Source: Alphaproteobacteria bacterium (GTDB lineage Bacteria > Pseudomonadota > Alphaproteobacteria > Reyranellales > Reyranellaceae). Taken from it: a DNA stretch of 64,000 nucleotides. Of this stretch, positions 17,363 through 45,911 are shown in pieces (positions within the stretch are counted from its first letter, which is position 1; the number at the start of each line of letters is the position of its first letter). Below the pieces are notes generated by a model, which made no database searches, was not told the origin of the DNA, and was given only the letters and a program-made list of their open reading frames with translations. The translations under genes were made by a program, and so were the position numbers. The DNA lies in assembly GCA_016869975.1 (NCBI GenBank), contig VGCZ01000019.1:1-64000 (forward strand), read 5' to 3'.

Positions 17363-18079
17363 ATGCGCGATCCCATCCCCTCCCTCGCCGAGCGCGTGCT
17401 CTATCGCGACGGGCTGGTCCTGGTGATCGACAAGCCCGCAGGCCTTCCGGTGCATGCCGGTCCGGGCGGCGGCCCCAACCTCGAGGCCGGTTTCGACGCG
17501 CTGCGCTACGGCCTGCCCAAACCGCCGGCGCTGGCCCACCGTCTCGATCGCGACACCTCGGGCTGCCTCGTGCTCGGCCGTCACCCCAAGGCGCTGCGTC
17601 GTCTAGGCCGGCTGTTCAGCGAGGGCCTCGCGGGCAAGACCTACTGGGCGGTCGTGACCGGCGCACCGCCGCAGGACAGCGGCACGATCGAGCTGGCGCT
17701 GCGCAAAGAGAGCCGCAAGGAGACCGGCTGGAAGATGGTGCCGGATCCCGCGGGCCAGAGCGCCGTCACCGACTACGAGGTGAAAGGCCGCGGTGCCGAT
17801 CTCACCTGGATCGAGTTCCGCCCGCGCACCGGCCGCACCCATCAGATCCGCGTGCACGCTGCCGCGCTGGGCTGCCCGGTGCTGGGCGATCCGGTCTACG
17901 GCCCCAAGCCGCCGCGCGCGCCGCTGCACCTGCACAGCCGCGCCATCCGCCTGCCGCTCTATCCCGCCAAGCCACCGATCGACGTGACAGCCCCGCCCCC
18001 GCGCCACATGCTCGACGCGCTGCACGCCTGTGGCTACTCAGATTCCCTCTCCCCGCACGCGGGGAGAGGGTTAGGGTGA
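17363..18079 (+). CDS. RluA-family RNA pseudouridine synthase
   Basis: A 238-residue protein with HRLDRDTSG at 59-67, in which Asp62 is the catalytic residue of RluA-type pseudouridine synthases, and RTGRTHQIRVH further on. It isomerises uridine to pseudouridine in rRNA or tRNA; which site is not predictable. The ATG at 17363 is chosen because the preceding in-frame residues from 17294 are not conserved-looking. Its last dozen residues (DSLSPHAGRGLG) are read from a dispersed hairpin repeat, which also provides the TGA stop. Confidence 0.87.
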   Translation: MRDPIPSLAERVLYRDGLVLVIDKPAGLPVHAGPGGGPNLEAGFDALRYGLPKPPALAHRLDRDTSGCLVLGRHPKALRRLGRLFSEGLAGKTYWAVVTGAPPQDSGTIELALRKESRKETGWKMVPDPAGQSAVTDYEVKGRGADLTWIEFRPRTGRTHQIRVHAAALGCPVLGDPVYGPKPPRAPLHLHSRAIRLPLYPAKPPIDVTAPPPRHMLDALHACGYSDSLSPHAGRGLG

Positions 18080-18160
18080 GGGGCCGCATCAAGTGACGCA
18101 CGCAACCTGAATCAGCCCCTCACCCCGACCCTCTCCCCGCACGCCGGGAGAGGGAGAGAC
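18045..18160. repeat. Composite palindromic element, family B
   Basis: Two hairpins (18045-18070 and 18129-18154) with arms CCCTCTCCCC/GGGGAGAGGG or close variants, joined by TGAGGGGC and GCCCCTCA that also pair. The centre GGGGCCGCATCAAGT then ACGCA recurs, with changes, in the element at 45788-45911. The left hairpin forms the end of the RluA-type gene and the right end lies just ahead of the UraD-UraH start. Confidence 0.85.
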
Positions 18161-18167
18161 CGATGTC

Positions 18168-19052
18168 ATGCCCCTCACCCTCGATGCCCTCAACGCCATG
18201 TCGCGCGACGACTTCATCACCGCGCTCGGCTCCATCTTCGAGCATGCGCCGTGGGTGGCCGAAGGCGCCGCCGGCAAACGACCCTTCGCCACCGTCGCCG
18301 ACCTGCATCGCGCCATGCTCGATGTCGTCGAAGCTGCGTCAGCCGATACGCAAACAATGTTTCTGCGTGGCCATCCCGACCTCGCCGGCAAGGCGGCGCG
18401 CGACGGCGCGCTGACGGCGGACTCCACCGCAGAGCAGGCCGGCGCCGGGCTCGATCGTCTGAGCGAAACCCAATACGCGCGCTTCCACCAGCTCAACACC
18501 GCCTACACCCAGCGCTTCGGCATCCCTTTCATCGTCTGCGTGCGCCGCCATACGCGCGGCTCGATCCTGCGCCAGTTCGAGCGCCGCCTGACCAACGACG
18601 CGGCCGCCGAACGCGCCACGGCATTGCGCGAGATCGGCCTGATCACCCGCCTGCGTGTCGACGGCGCGGTCGAAGGGTCGGGCAAACCGAACGTCAACGG
18701 CCGCCTCTCGACGCACGTGCTCGATACGCACATGGGCAGGCCCGCCGAAGGCGTGCGTATCGATCTCTTCGAGATGCAGGACGACGGCCCCGAGACCAAG
18801 CTCGCGACGACCACGACCAACGCCGACGGCCGCACCGACAAGCCGCTGATCGGCGGCCAGCCACTACGCATCGGCGTCTACGAGCTGCGCTTCCACATCG
18901 GAGCCCATTTCGCGCGCCGCGGCGTGCCGGCGGCCGACACGCCGTTCCTCGACATCGTGCCGCTGCGCTTCGGCATCGCCGATCCCGAGGGCCACTACCA
19001 CGTGCCGCTGCTGGCGACGCCGTGGAGCTATTCGACGTACCGGGGGAGCTGA
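18168..19052 (+). CDS. Fused OHCU decarboxylase-HIU hydrolase (UraD-UraH)
   Basis: A 294-residue bifunctional enzyme of urate breakdown. Residues 1 to about 165 form the UraD domain: FLRGHPDL puts the catalytic His at 69 and LSETQYARFHQLN and FGIPFIVCV are typical. Residues from about 175 form 5-hydroxyisourate hydrolase: STHVLD (His183), GHYHVPLL and the diagnostic C-terminal YRGS. HIU hydrolase acts first and UraD second, giving S-allantoin, so the fusion holds two successive steps in reversed order. No urate oxidase gene lies in the window. A repeat supplies the purine-rich stretch upstream of the ATG. Confidence 0.94.
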   Translation: MPLTLDALNAMSRDDFITALGSIFEHAPWVAEGAAGKRPFATVADLHRAMLDVVEAASADTQTMFLRGHPDLAGKAARDGALTADSTAEQAGAGLDRLSETQYARFHQLNTAYTQRFGIPFIVCVRRHTRGSILRQFERRLTNDAAAERATALREIGLITRLRVDGAVEGSGKPNVNGRLSTHVLDTHMGRPAEGVRIDLFEMQDDGPETKLATTTTNADGRTDKPLIGGQPLRIGVYELRFHIGAHFARRGVPAADTPFLDIVPLRFGIADPEGHYHVPLLATPWSYSTYRGS

Positions 19053-29429: not shown

Positions 29430-29680
29430 ACAAATACAGCCCACATGCGATTTTAGTTAAAGGATTATTTCTAGTGCATTGAATATGCTGACTCAATTAT
29501 CGTAAATTTATCGTCAATAACAACTCATGCCTCAGAGGCGTGACATATTTATCTCAATAAAATCAATGATGTGACTTTGCGTTTGACAGCGAGAGCCGAG
29601 GCGATCAAAGTCTCGCCCATCACGCAAGTTTAACGCGTGACGCCAAGGATACGAAACTTAATTACAAGTATGTCTGATTT
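29430..29680. other. AT-rich island
   Basis: Base content changes sharply: the 60 bases at 29461-29520 contain only 17 G or C, in a window that is otherwise about two-thirds G+C. It includes TTATCGTAAATTTATCGT (a near-direct repeat) and a small palindrome GCCTCAGAGGC (29529-29539). It could be a promoter or protein-binding region, or a remnant of transferred DNA. No gene is visible in it. Confidence 0.7.
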
Positions 29681-29802
29681 GGCCCGGGCTCTCTTCTGGC
29701 TCTCTCCGACCCGGGGTGACTTGGAAGGAATTAAGTCAAAGTATTTGGAAAGCTTGGATAAATGAGTTGACCCAAGGACGCGCCGCCTCATGTGGCACGT
29801 CA

Positions 29803-29979
29803 GATCCCAGCGGTACAGCACGACGTTTCGGCCGGTGAGCGGAAGGGCTTGCGCCCACCGGGATCGACAAGTGCGCGCCGCGACAGACCGGGCACCCGGG
29901 GGGAGACCAGCCGCGAGGTTGGTCGTGGAAGACGGGGCACGGTCGAGGCGGCGACAGGCGACGTGCATCCGCTGGGATC
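29803..29979 (+). ncRNA. Candidate structured RNA of about 177 nt
   Basis: Nested helices can be drawn: 29803-29813 with 29969-29979 (11 perfect pairs), 29818-29822 with 29962-29966 (5 pairs), and 29829-29833 with 29941-29945 (5 pairs, one G-U). Inside lie a GGTG...CACC hairpin with an inner GGGC/GCCC stem and a 12-base apical stem, 29878-29889 with 29917-29928 (one mismatch, two G-U). The G-U pairs favour the plus strand. A TTGACC at 29767-29772 stands at a fitting distance for a -35 box, but the -10 region is poor. The closed rod with a central bubble recalls 6S RNA; that identity is a guess. Confidence 0.4.
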
Positions 29980-30088
29980 GTGGTCGACCGCTTGGAACGA
30001 CGAAGTCTGGGAAGTTCACGGAAGATCGAAACAGCGAACATATCTTGTCTTGGTGAAGAGTTCTGTCGGGGGACAGCGCGAGGAGCAA

Positions 30089-30127
30089 CGGCGGCGGGTT
30101 CTTGGGGGAAACACGAACCCGCCGCCG
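30089..30127. promoter_or_regulatory. Strong hairpin in the leader of the small membrane protein genes
   Basis: Perfect 13-base arms CGGCGGCGGGTTC (30089-30101) and GAACCCGCCGCCG (30115-30127) with a 13-base purine-rich loop, no T-run behind it, 44 bases before the first small gene. It could act on mRNA stability or translation. It is not a member of the dispersed repeat families. Confidence 0.5.
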
Positions 30128-30171
30128 CCTCGACGACACAGGATCGCCGCGCGATCAAACGGGGAATGACC

Positions 30172-30487: not shown

Positions 30488-30514
30488 ATCCCTCGCTGCG
30501 CTCGGGGTGACAGG
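30488..30514. repeat. Half copy of repeat family C
   Basis: ATCCCTCGCTGCGCTCGGGG followed by TGACAGGG: the right half and centre of the palindrome seen whole at 3103-3135. It lies between the second microprotein and the MFS carrier. Confidence 0.75.
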
Positions 30515-30542
30515 GACATCGCCGCCTGTATAGTGCGGGGCC

Positions 30543-32892: not shown

Positions 32893-33864
32893 ATGCATCG
32901 CCGCACCGCCCTCGCCCTGCTCGCCACCACTCCTTTGGCAACAGCGGTGCGCGCGCAGGAAAAATATCCGTCGCGGCCGATCACCCTGGTGGTCGCCTAC
33001 ACGCCGGGCGGCGGCACCGACGCGGTGGCGCGCGTCTTGGCGGCGCGGCTCGGCCAGGTTCTCGGCGGCCAGATCATCGTCGACAACAAGCCCGGCGCCG
33101 GCAGCAACCTCGCCACTGAGATGGTCGCGCGCGCCAGACCCGACGGATACACCCTGCTGGTCGGCAACCAGGGACCGATGGTGGTGAACCCGCACCTCTT
33201 TCCCAGCATGCCGGCTGATCCAGAGACGACGCTCGATCCCATCGCGCTGATCGCGGACACCACGCTGGTGGTCGTGGTCGGCCCACGCCTGCCCGGCGTG
33301 AAGACGCTCGCCGCGTTGATCGAGGACGGCCGGAAGCGTCCGGGTGCGCTGACCTACGCCTCGGCGTCGAATGCCTCGGCCAGCCACCTCGCCGCCGCGC
33401 TGCTGTGCGAGGTCGCCGGCGTCAGCGCGCGCCACGTGCCCTATCGCGGCGCCGCGCCGGCGCTCAACGACGTGGTCGGCGGCCATGTCGATTTCATGAT
33501 CACCACGGTGCCGTCCGCGACCGGCCTCATCGAAGGCGGCAAGCTGACAGCGCTCGCCGTCACCGGCCAGCAGCGCGCGGCATTGCTGCCGTCGGTGCCG
33601 ACAGCGCTCGAAGCCGGCGTCATCGGTTACACTGCCTCGGCGTGGTACGGACTGCTGGCGCCCAAGGGCCTGCCGCCCGATATCCTCGCACGCCTCGAAT
33701 CCGCGACCGCCGAAAGCCTCGGCGACGCGCAGGTTCAAACACGGCTGAAGGCCGACGGCGCGTCACCGATCGCGATGGGCAGCGCCGCCTTCGGCGCCTT
33801 CATGAAACGCGAACGCGCCCGATGGGGCGAGGTGGTGCGCAAGGCGCGCATCACGGTGGATTGA
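32893..33864 (+). CDS. Bug/TctC-family periplasmic solute-binding protein
   Basis: A 323-residue exported receptor with a short signal peptide (MHRRTALALLATTPLATAVRA, probably cut before QEKYP). KYPSRPITLVVAYTPGGGTD is the typical opening and PGAGSNLATEMVARARPDGYTLL the typical second loop of the tripartite tricarboxylate transporter (TTT) receptors, which clasp carboxylates. The TctA/TctB membrane genes are not in the window, as is common for Bug proteins that are found orphaned in large number. The ligand is not predicted. It may be cotranscribed with the chromate transporter genes. Confidence 0.92.
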   Translation: MHRRTALALLATTPLATAVRAQEKYPSRPITLVVAYTPGGGTDAVARVLAARLGQVLGGQIIVDNKPGAGSNLATEMVARARPDGYTLLVGNQGPMVVNPHLFPSMPADPETTLDPIALIADTTLVVVVGPRLPGVKTLAALIEDGRKRPGALTYASASNASASHLAAALLCEVAGVSARHVPYRGAAPALNDVVGGHVDFMITTVPSATGLIEGGKLTALAVTGQQRAALLPSVPTALEAGVIGYTASAWYGLLAPKGLPPDILARLESATAESLGDAQVQTRLKADGASPIAMGSAAFGAFMKRERARWGEVVRKARITVD

Positions 33865-33869
33865 GTCAT

Positions 33870-34003
33870 TACCTTCCCCCGGAGGGGGAAGGCGCCCGAA
33901 GGGCGGATGGGGGATGTCGAAGACGAACACCGCGTGCGTTGAGGCATCTCCCATCCGGCGCTGCGCGCCACCTTGCCCCTCCGGGGAAAGGTAGAAGAGT
34001 AAT
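33870..34003. repeat. Composite palindromic element, family A
   Basis: A 134-base imperfect palindrome. The left end TACCTTCCCCCGGAGG pairs with the right end near 33980-34003 (two mismatches in 23), and GGCGGATGGGGGATG pairs with CATCTCCCATCCGGC (one mismatch). It fills the gap between the Bug receptor and the amidase gene and resembles a small non-autonomous mobile element. Confidence 0.8.
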
Positions 34004-34017
34004 GAGGAGTCGAAGAG

Positions 34018-35451
34018 ATGACCGAACCCTGTGATCTCAGCGCCGTCGAACTGCGCCGGTTGATCGGCACGCGCAAGCTGTCGCCGATCGAGCTGCTGAA
34101 CTCGTGCTTCAAGCGCATTGATCAGGTGAATCCCAGGCTCAACGCTTTCGTCGCGATGTGCGAGGACCGCGCGCAGGCCGAGGCGCGCGCGGCCGAGCGT
34201 GCGGTGATGGCCGGCGACCCGCTCGGCCCGCTGCATGGCCTGCCGGTGGGCATCAAGGATCTGCAGGAGACCGAAGGGCTGCGCACCGTCTTCGGCTCGC
34301 CGTTGATGGCCGACAACGTCCCCAACAAGGACGAGCGCACGGTGGCGGCGATCCGCGACGCCGGCGCCATCGTCGTAGGCAAGACCAACACGCCGGAATT
34401 CGGCGCCGGCGCCAACACCACCAACCCGGTCTATGGCCTGACGCGCAACCCCTTCGATCCGACGCGCATCTGCGGCGGCTCCTCGGGCGGCTCGGCGGTG
34501 GCGCTGGCGACCTCGATGGTGCCGATCTGCAGCGGCTCCGACACCGGCGGCTCGCTGCGTATCCCCGCCGCCTTCTGCGGCATCGTGGGATTCCGCCCCT
34601 CGCCCGGCGTGGTGCCCAGCGAACGCCGCGGGCTGGGCTGGACGCCGCTCTCGGTGCTCGGGCCGATGGGCCGCGATGTCGCCGACACGGCGCTCCTGAT
34701 GAGCGCAATGGCCGCCTACGATCCGCGCGATCCGTTGTCCATGCCGGTCGACGCCGCCACGTTCGCCGCGCTCAAGCCGGTCGACCTGTCGTCGCTGCGC
34801 GTCGCCTTCTCGACCGATCTCGGCTGCGCCATCGTCGATCATCGCATCCGCGACGCCTTCAAGCATCGCGCCGAGAAGCTGGCGCCGGTGTTCCGCGCCG
34901 CCCAGTGGCGCGACCCCGACATGGGCCGCGCCAACGATGTGTTCGAGGCATTGCGCGCCATGAACTTCATGACCGCGCATTTGAAGCGCTACCAGGAGCA
35001 CTACGACAAGCTCGGCCCCAACATCCGCGCCAATGTCGAGCAGGGAATGAAGATGAGCCTGGCCGACGCCGCGGCGGCGCATGCCGAGCAGACCCGCGTG
35101 TTCCGCGCCTTCCAGGATTTCTTCCGCGACGTCGACGTGCTGATCACGCCCACCGTGGCGGTGCCGCCCTTCCCGGTCGAGCAGCTCACCATCAAGGAGA
35201 TCAACGGCGAGCCGTTGCGCACCTATTTCCATTGGCTGGCGATGACCTACGCCATCACCAACACCGGCCACCCGGCAATCTCGATTCCCAGCGGCCTCGA
35301 TTCCACCGGCACGCCGCTCGGCCTGCAGATCGTCGGCCCGCACCACGGCGACAAGTTCGTGCTTGATGTCGCCGCGGCGCTGGAGGCGCATCTGGCGAGC
35401 GATCCCTCGATCGCGCGGCCGGTGCCCGAGCTCGCGCGCTTGGCGTCCTGA
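34018..35451 (+). CDS. Amidase-signature hydrolase
   Basis: A 477-residue amidase-signature enzyme with the full Ser-cisSer-Lys triad: Lys in LPVGIKDLQETEG, the cis-serine in CGGSSGGSAVA, and the nucleophile in SDTGGSLRIPA. It hydrolyses small amides in the cytoplasm. It resembles GatA in fold but no gatB or gatC is near, so a catabolic role is more likely. It starts 15 bases after the composite repeat; GGAGTCGAAGAG lies upstream of the ATG. Confidence 0.9.
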   Translation: MTEPCDLSAVELRRLIGTRKLSPIELLNSCFKRIDQVNPRLNAFVAMCEDRAQAEARAAERAVMAGDPLGPLHGLPVGIKDLQETEGLRTVFGSPLMADNVPNKDERTVAAIRDAGAIVVGKTNTPEFGAGANTTNPVYGLTRNPFDPTRICGGSSGGSAVALATSMVPICSGSDTGGSLRIPAAFCGIVGFRPSPGVVPSERRGLGWTPLSVLGPMGRDVADTALLMSAMAAYDPRDPLSMPVDAATFAALKPVDLSSLRVAFSTDLGCAIVDHRIRDAFKHRAEKLAPVFRAAQWRDPDMGRANDVFEALRAMNFMTAHLKRYQEHYDKLGPNIRANVEQGMKMSLADAAAAHAEQTRVFRAFQDFFRDVDVLITPTVAVPPFPVEQLTIKEINGEPLRTYFHWLAMTYAITNTGHPAISIPSGLDSTGTPLGLQIVGPHHGDKFVLDVAAALEAHLASDPSIARPVPELARLAS

Positions 35452-35476: not shown

Positions 35477-36091
35477 TCAGGCCACCGGTCGTGCCCCCCG
35501 ATGCTCCTCCCGCGCTGCGTTCCAGACGGTTCGGGCGGCGTCGGCGTTGAGGTAGGCGATGGCGACACCGACGATCAGGTCAGGCCACATCGAGCGCCAC
35601 AGATAGGCGGTGACGAGGCCGGCGGCGATGATCGCCAGGTTTGCGAATGTGTCGTTGCGTGCCGAGAGGAACGCCGCCTGCGTCAGGCTCCCACCATGCG
35701 AGCGGTAGGCCGACAGCAGCAACGCGCAGAAGAGATTGACGAACAGCGCGCCGAGGCCGGTGAGGCTCAGCACGACGGCTTCCGGTGGAACCGGCGTGGC
35801 GAGCTTCTGCGCGACGGTCCATAGGCCGGCGAGCGCTGGCAGCAGCAGGATTCCCGTGAGGACCATGCCGACTCGCGCCCGCGTTCGCGCCGACCACGCT
35901 AGGGCGAAGAAGACCAACAGGTTGACCGAGGCGTCCTCGAAGAAGTCGACGCTGTCGGCGAACAGCGAGACCGAGCCGATGCCGAAGGCGATGTGGAACT
36001 CGGCCACGCCGAAGGCGAGGTTGAGCAGAGCGACGATGAGAACGGCACGGCGCAGGCCGCGCCGGTCGGCGGGTTCATCGGGTGTAGGCAT
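35477..36091 (-). CDS. Cation-diffusion-facilitator-type transporter
   Basis: A 204-residue membrane protein with five or six spans and no C-terminal metal-binding domain. The first metal site reads ADSVDFFED in place of the more common DxxHxxxD, so Asp stands where many CDF proteins have His, as in YiiP-like Zn/Cd/Fe carriers; the second site in TM5 reads SARNDTFANLA, without the usual HxxxD. It probably exports divalent metal ions, with altered selectivity. The ATG at 36091 is chosen for a compact N-terminus. It runs opposite to the amidase, tail to tail. Confidence 0.8.
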   Translation of the reverse strand: MPTPDEPADRRGLRRAVLIVALLNLAFGVAEFHIAFGIGSVSLFADSVDFFEDASVNLLVFFALAWSARTRARVGMVLTGILLLPALAGLWTVAQKLATPVPPEAVVLSLTGLGALFVNLFCALLLSAYRSHGGSLTQAAFLSARNDTFANLAIIAAGLVTAYLWRSMWPDLIVGVAIAYLNADAARTVWNAAREEHRGARPVA

Positions 36092-36157
36092 CGGCGTCAG
36101 GCTAGAGCAATGTCCGGGTGGACAGAATAGCCGCTCCCCGGACGGCAAAACTCCTGT

Positions 36158-36239
36158 GCCGTTCGGGCCGCGCCGCTCCAGCAACGCTCCTGGTATAAGG
36201 GAGCGAAGAGCGCCGCTGGAGCGGCGTGGCCCGAACGGC
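36158..36239. repeat. Long inverted repeat with nested hairpin
   Basis: Arms of 25 bases at 36158-36182 and 36215-36239 pair with one mismatch. The 32-base centre holds its own CGCTCC/GGAGCG hairpin (36185-36190 with 36200-36205). It lies in the divergent gap between the CDF and the acyl-CoA synthetase genes. A shortened copy is at 31758-31777, and the CGCCGCTCCAGC part recalls family D. Confidence 0.88.
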
Positions 36240-36270
36240 TACAAGCCGCGTTATGAGACACGAGGTTCCC

Positions 36271-44679: not shown

Positions 44680-45773
44680 CCCTTGCCTCCATGCTCACCC
44701 AGCAGCGGCTCGCGATAGGTCACCCGCGAGGGCTCCTCCTTGAACCGCACGACAGGCGCGAAATGCCTGCGGCCCATGTCGTCGGTCACGATCATGCCGC
44801 GCTTCTTCAGGTTGGCGTCCTCGATCGCCTCCGGCAGCGTATTCACCGGGCCGTAGCAGACATCGAGCTTCGACAGATACTCCATCCAGTGCCGTAGCGA
44901 CTTCGAACGGAAGGTCGCTTCGAGGAATTCCATGACAGGCTTCTGGTGCGCGCCGGGCCATTCGCAGAGCGGCGCGAAGTCCGGCCGTCCCAGCGCGCCC
45001 AGCAGGTTCTGCACGAACTTCATCTCCTGCCCGGCGAGCACGAGCTGGCGGCCATCGGACGTGTCGTAGATGCGATAGAAGGCCGAGCCGCCCGTCGTGC
45101 GCTGGGTCTTCACGTCGGGCTGCGTGCCGTCGGTGAACGGCGCGCCGACCACGTTGGCGCACGACGCCATCAGCGCCTCGTGCATCGACACGTCGATGTA
45201 GTCGCCCTTGCCCGTGCTGACGCGGCGCAGCAGTGCCATCAGCACGCCGGCCAGCCCGTGCAGGCCGCTCACCACGTCGGCGGCGGGAATGCCGGGGATC
45301 GCCGGCCGCCCGTCGTCGCCCAGGGTCAGGCTCAGCACGCCGGTCATCGCCTCGAGCGCGAGATCGTGCGCGGCGCGGCCGGGATAGGCGCCGTCCTGGC
45401 CGAAGGCGGAGATCGAGCAATAGACGATGCCCGGGTTCCGGGCCTTCACCGCCTCGTAACCGACGCCGAAGCGCGCGGCGACGCCGGGGCGGAACGACTC
45501 CACCAGCACGTCGGCTTCGCAGGCGAGGCGAAAGAGGTCCGCCCTACCCTGCTCGCTCTTGAGGTCGAGGACGACGCTCCTCTTGCCGCGCGCCATGTTG
45601 CGGAAGAACACCGATGTGCGCTGGTCGGGCGGCAGGATGTGACGGCCGGGGTCGCCCTCGCCCGGCGGCTCGACCTTGATCACCGTGGCGCCGTGATCGG
45701 CCAGCGCCGTCGTGAGATACGGCCCCGGCAGGAACCAGGAGAGATCGACGACCTTGATGCCTTCGAGCTTCAT
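44670..45773 (-). CDS. CaiB/BaiF-family CoA transferase (I)
   Basis: A 367-residue family III CoA transferase. The catalytic Asp166 lies in AADVVSGLHG, and VKVEPPGEGDPGRH and SISAFGQDG are family blocks. These enzymes move CoA between carboxylic acids through a covalent aspartyl-CoA intermediate. It is followed with overlap by a MaoC hydratase. A 126-base composite repeat separates it from the second CoA transferase gene on the same strand. Substrates are not predicted. Confidence 0.92.
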   Translation of the reverse strand: MKLEGIKVVDLSWFLPGPYLTTALADHGATVIKVEPPGEGDPGRHILPPDQRTSVFFRNMARGKRSVVLDLKSEQGRADLFRLACEADVLVESFRPGVAARFGVGYEAVKARNPGIVYCSISAFGQDGAYPGRAAHDLALEAMTGVLSLTLGDDGRPAIPGIPAADVVSGLHGLAGVLMALLRRVSTGKGDYIDVSMHEALMASCANVVGAPFTDGTQPDVKTQRTTGGSAFYRIYDTSDGRQLVLAGQEMKFVQNLLGALGRPDFAPLCEWPGAHQKPVMEFLEATFRSKSLRHWMEYLSKLDVCYGPVNTLPEAIEDANLKKRGMIVTDDMGRRHFAPVVRFKEEPSRVTYREPLLGEHGGKGWS

Positions 45774-45787
45774 GACTTCGCACCTTA

Positions 45788-45911
45788 TCTCCCTCTCCCC
45801 GCTTGCGGGGAGAGGGTCGGGGTGAGGGGCCGCATCGAGTTACGCACAACGACCGCGCGTCACCTGAAGCAACCCCTCACCCTAACCCTCTCCCCGCCGG
45901 CGGGGAGAGGG
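45788..45911. repeat. Composite palindromic element, family B
   Basis: Two hairpins (45791-45816 and 45886-45911) with CCCTCTCCCC/GGGGAGAGGG arms and a centre GGTGAGGGGCCGCATCGAGT. The element has the same plan as 18045-18160. It separates two co-directional CoA transferase genes, so it is likely transcribed and may form a strong RNA structure that uncouples the two parts of the cluster. Confidence 0.88.

Follow-up and report, generated by a model that had tools for sequence, protein, structure and literature searches.

Organization of the locus

The stretch of DNA analysed here (the window; 64,000 nt of a genome of the family Reyranellaceae, designated W) carries a candidate promoter, a long stretch of predicted RNA structure, two small ORFs encoding putative membrane proteins and, downstream of these, a gene for an MFS transporter. 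The segment at 29803-29979, hereafter called the element, had been singled out in an initial annotation as a candidate structured RNA resembling 6S RNA. The features of the locus are listed in Table 1. The genomes used for comparison were those of its congeners G001, G002 and G003 and that of G004, which represents a sister genus in the same family.

Table 1. Features of the locus and their coordinates in the window
Feature	Position	Strand	Remarks
Candidate promoter, TTGACA, 17-base spacer, CAAAGT (weak -10)	29583-29611	+	position shared by W, G001, G003 and G004
Palindrome TCACGC-N9-GCGTGA at expected transcript start	29620-29640	+	conserved in four genomes
Leader hairpin CCCGGG...CCCGGG, variable loop	29683-29715	+	kept in G001 and G003; similar CCGGGC...GCCCGG in G004
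Small hairpin just before element	29780-29798	+	three species retain it, with G-C, A-U or G-U at 29782/29796
Element, predicted three-way junction	29803-29979	+	z = -5.18; identity 87% in G001 and, where aligned, 81% in G003
P1, 11-bp closing helix	29803-29813/29969-29979	+	in MFE and centroid
P2	29818-29827/29957-29966	+	5 bp (29818-29822/29962-29966), then 4 bp (29824-29827/29957-29960); in MFE and centroid
P3, 5' hairpin of junction	29828-29867	+	kept in three species; U-A to C-G at 29836/29857
Long inner arm	29871-29962	+	P4 29876-29881/29948-29953, then 29886-29898/29933-29944, apical P5 29905-29924; G003 lacks the arm
Invariant stretch AACGACGAAGTCTGGG after element	29996-30011	+	three-locus alignment; partly repeated in G001
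Strong G+C hairpin, 3' end of conserved block	30089-30127	+	kept in three species; invariant GCGCGAGGAGCAAC before it; no U-tract
Likely Shine-Dalgarno GGGGA	30161-30165	+	before ATG in three species; GGGGGA in G001 and G003
Small membrane protein 1, 47 aa	30172-30315	+	W, G001, G003 and G004, no indels; frame +0 best of six
Small membrane protein 2, 43 aa	30347-30478	+	67% identical copy at the same place in G001

Sixty relatives were searched for related DNA at this locus. Clearly related DNA was found at the same place in G001 (85% identity over 229 bases) and G003 only, the rest giving short matches; none was found at the locus in the congener G002, whose assembly is 67% complete. Alignment of the three loci (W, G001 and G003) revealed a conserved block between the promoter and the small ORF, whereas the gene upstream of it differs in W from that in G001 and G003. 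The block extends from the TTGACA-type promoter and +1 palindrome (29583-29640) to the G+C hairpin (30089-30127); conservation drops after position 30127 and rises again at the Shine-Dalgarno sequence, the spacer before which is variable. Positions 29803 and 29979, which had been taken for the ends of the RNA, are only the ends of a helix, and the conserved RNA spans about 29620-30137. The literature library searched contained no work on RNAs of Reyranella.

Predicted fold of the element

The minimum free energy of the segment 29803-29979 was -98.9 kcal/mol, compared with a mean of -76.3 kcal/mol for shuffled sequences (z = -5.18), and none of the 200 shuffles was as stable. Both the minimum-energy (MFE) and the centroid structure are three-way junctions, in which P1 and P2 close the domain and the hairpin P3 and the long arm P4-P5 branch from it. 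The helices named in the initial annotation, that is the 11-bp and 5-bp closing helices, the helix following them (4 bp in the fold), the inner hairpin at 29828-29867 and the apical stem at 29905-29924, were recovered in both structures; the large internal bubble proposed with them was not. The sampled pairs of P1, P2, P3, P4 and P5 had probabilities of approximately 1.0 in the longer transcript.

When the 64 kb were scanned in 710 windows of 177 nt, z-scores of -5 or below were reached in only five, all of which are long palindromes; therefore a chance fold of the segment is unlikely, as had been argued before. These long, nearly perfect palindromes, located at 2071-2250, 18001-18177, 33841-34020, 36091-36270 and 45721-45900, fold more strongly than the element. 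They look like the interspersed palindromic repeats of alphaproteobacteria; one example has the form CCCTCTCCCCGC...GCGGGGAGAGGG with a second inner arm. The element was also considered as such a repeat, and this was rejected because it has no second genomic copy, giving a single match in its own genome.

A pairing of 29803-29808 with 29860-29865 was proposed by RNAalifold from a shortened alignment and was carried by a first covariance model, R1. It is not fully kept in G001 and G003 and has a probability of 0 in the full fold, so there is no evidence for a switch at these positions; the pairing was rejected and R1 was set aside.

Conservation and base-pair changes

The element is the best conserved segment of the region: its identity between W and G001 is 87%, compared with 70% in the leader on its 5' side and 83% on its 3' side. 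G003 is identical at 81% of the aligned positions and lacks an arm of about 91 bases; to judge from that sequence, the long inner arm is dispensable. Both congeners retain P1, P3 and the lower part of P2, with one or two P1 pairs broken in G003. A change of both partners occurs within P3 in G003, where 29836/29857 is C-G instead of U-A. In the long inner arm, W and G001 differ by two double changes (29893/29937 and 29897/29934), three G-U changes and two broken pairs. The pair 29782/29796 of the small upstream hairpin changes from G-C to A-U in G001, and G-U is also seen among the three species.

Between W and G001, four pairs of the element are broken, compared with 8.8 expected if the substitutions were placed at random (P = 0.007), and the joint probability of the breaks and double changes is about 0.001. 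The element of G003 alone gave P = 0.09 for breaks, which is suggestive in what is a weak comparison. Over the whole leader 94% of the cells pair, and seven pairs are changed on both sides, compared with 0-1 in slid controls. Each of the two orthologues folds better than its own shuffles (z = -3.8 and -2.4), but when G001 is folded by itself the region of P3 is rearranged in the lowest-energy structure. Since the comparison comprises three sequences and the structure was taken from one of them, that of W, the pair-preserving changes are supportive rather than conclusive. The helices are largely kept in G001 and G003 and the counts of pair changes are favourable, but the sequences number only three and G003 has lost the inner arm. 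The interpretation as a structured RNA is supported by the fold energy, by the pair-preserving changes and by the conservation of the segment at this locus in two congeners.

The minus strand of the element folds equally well (z = -5.88), and inside the element the other two species show four new G-U and four new A-C cells. The claim that G-U pairs favour the plus strand is not borne out by these values. Plus is nevertheless the likely strand, because the conserved promoter and the conserved ORF both lie on it. The upstream neighbour in G001 and G003 also reads on the plus strand, and a leader on the minus strand would therefore serve no gene in these two genomes.

The equal stability of the minus strand, together with the palindromic nature of the other strong folds in the window, could also mean that the segment is a palindromic element or a chance fold of G+C-rich DNA with no function as RNA. 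We consider this improbable, given that the segment is present in a single genomic copy, occupies the same locus in the congeners, is conserved more strongly than the rest of the region and has changed in ways that respect its pairs.

Relation to 6S RNA and known RNA families

None of the 4227 models of Rfam 15 matched the window at the gathering thresholds, and nothing credible appeared in the gap at a relaxed threshold of E <= 10; the comparison with 6S and other models that had been proposed as a check thus found nothing at either level. A known Rfam riboswitch or leader family was likewise rejected, as no model matches the element. A 6S gene was found in 29 of the 31 genomes searched, and that of the present genome is on another contig, C8 (55.6 bits, cut-off 46.4).

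The element shares with 6S RNA (RF00013) a long closing helix and a similar length, from which a diverged 6S RNA or a second 6S copy might be supposed. This is extremely unlikely: the very model that finds the true gene on C8 is silent here, the fold is branched and lacks the large single-stranded central bubble, the inner arm is variable and lost in G003, and an ordinary 6S gene is already present. The resemblance noted initially therefore does not hold, in view of the missing Rfam match, the branched fold and the bona fide 6S gene elsewhere in the genome.

Candidate promoter and proposed leader

The G004 version of the candidate promoter is TTGACT, 17 bases and TATAAA. The palindrome, located where the transcript is expected to start, occurs only once in its own genome even when three mismatches are allowed, and may be a 5'-terminal RNA hairpin or an operator; the sequence TTAACGCGTGA, which forms its right half and loop, does not vary among the four genomes. 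A TTGACC closer to the element (29769) had been noted in the initial annotation. G001 has TTAACC at this place and in G003 the motif could not be recognised, hence it is not a conserved promoter.

No plus-strand intrinsic (U-tract) terminator was found between the element and the small ORF, so that a promoter upstream and a coding sequence downstream stand on the same strand with no such terminator separating them, as in a 5' leader. The indels of the leader are mostly not multiples of three, which argues that it is noncoding; frameshifting indels throughout led us to reject the element and leader as coding sequence. The discrete transcript of 177 nt proposed originally is not what the locus suggests, since the TTGACC is not conserved, a plus-strand terminator is missing and the conserved block covers about 550 nt and leads into a conserved small ORF. 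In G001 the invariant stretch is partly repeated in tandem in the leader after the element (ACGAAGTCTGGGGAAATACGAAGTCTAGG).

Phylogenetic distribution

The promoter and palindrome are present in four of the 76 genomes of the order, namely W, G001, G003 and G004, and the 47-aa protein is encoded in exactly the same four. No further copy of the protein turned up among 385 sampled genomes of the class, and a collection of genome contigs returned G001 and G004 again and nothing further. In G004 the promoter and small protein are kept, the leader is shorter and the element is not recognised; the element is therefore not needed for the small gene in general.

A covariance model, R2, consisting of the upstream hairpin, the 5' strand of P1 and P3, scored 98-120 bits in the three members of the genus, whereas no score in the rest of the order exceeded 31 bits. 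The weak matches were not accepted as a wider spread, because those inspected lie in long ORFs as far as these could be read, and the two best are homologous coding sequence. On these matches, the known range of the RNA is one genus with three species, and that of the promoter and small protein extends to one sister genus.

Putative small membrane proteins

Small protein 1 has one hydrophobic segment as judged by eye. Substitutions in its ORF are not strongly biased to third positions, and the ORF is no better conserved than the element. Small protein 2 was not found at the G003 or G004 loci, and neither protein matched a Pfam or NCBIfam family. The similarity between the two is weak, small protein 2 aligning with the G004 copy of small protein 1 at 38% identity over 34 residues (E = 0.026); they are possibly tandem paralogues.

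Interpretation

With only slightly better than even confidence, we propose that the element is a folded domain within a plus-strand 5' untranslated leader of about 550 nt that belongs to the small membrane-protein genes and likely acts in cis. We infer transcription from the conserved promoter at 29583-29611; the leader would run into the Shine-Dalgarno sequence and the gene for the 47-aa membrane protein, with the second small ORF behind. Its 5' hairpin and compact domains would set mRNA stability and ribosome access to the small gene, so that the membrane protein would be made only under the right conditions. Because the Shine-Dalgarno sequence pairs only locally in the predicted fold, there is no sign that the element sequesters it directly; action on stability or ribosome loading, or by way of a trans-acting factor, appears more likely.

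The leader might perhaps also be the source of a processed sRNA, like UpsM in Rhodobacter sphaeroides. UpsM shows that an sRNA can be contained in the extended leader of an alphaproteobacterial transcript (PMC5089854). The 5' leader of the dcw cluster in that species is, as in the present case, an unusually long structured alphaproteobacterial leader upstream of membrane or envelope genes and a possible sRNA source; it differs in the genes downstream and in that UpsM has been shown experimentally, whereas the leader here is predicted. With this precedent, the principal product could instead be a stable noncoding RNA acting in trans, either processed from the leader as a 5'UTR-derived sRNA or about 500 nt long and ending at the 30089-30127 hairpin. 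The element being the most conserved part of the region, the conserved unpaired stretches and the fall of conservation between that hairpin and the Shine-Dalgarno sequence are all consistent with such an RNA, but it would have to end without a U-tract terminator, and the promoter is always accompanied by the small protein. We regard this explanation as quite possible, though not probable.

Since the conservation of the element equals or exceeds that of the small ORF, the RNA itself could be the main product. One could then picture a new structured noncoding RNA, specific to this lineage and about 500 nt long, with a three-way junction core, several conserved hairpins and invariant single-stranded motifs, which is bifunctional by having the tandem small membrane proteins on the same transcript; we think this unlikely.

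The arrangement, with small single-helix proteins encoded after a long structured leader, also brings to mind a type I toxin-antitoxin-like locus, in which translation of a toxic small membrane protein is held back by the leader. Such control is exemplified by tisB, whose mRNA is described as processed and highly structured (PMC7708055). The likeness consists in a structured leader before a very small membrane protein; the protein is different, and the antisense RNA, toxicity and standby site of tisB are not part of the case made here. Neither an antisense RNA nor a match to a toxin family was found at the locus and the Shine-Dalgarno pairing is only local in the predicted fold, which makes this analogy very unlikely to hold.

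Under the proposed leader function, as under its alternatives with an RNA product, the locus adds to the Reyranellaceae an undescribed conserved structured RNA, unmatched in Rfam 15, joined to an undescribed family of small membrane proteins; the general picture is unchanged. A long leader before a very small protein is easily overlooked, since annotation misses the one as well as the other.

Behind the second small ORF, a promoter-like sequence, GTGACA-16-TATAGT, is present at 30507-30534 before the MFS transporter gene, and TATAGTGCGGGGCC is also present in G001. The transporter gene may therefore be transcribed separately.
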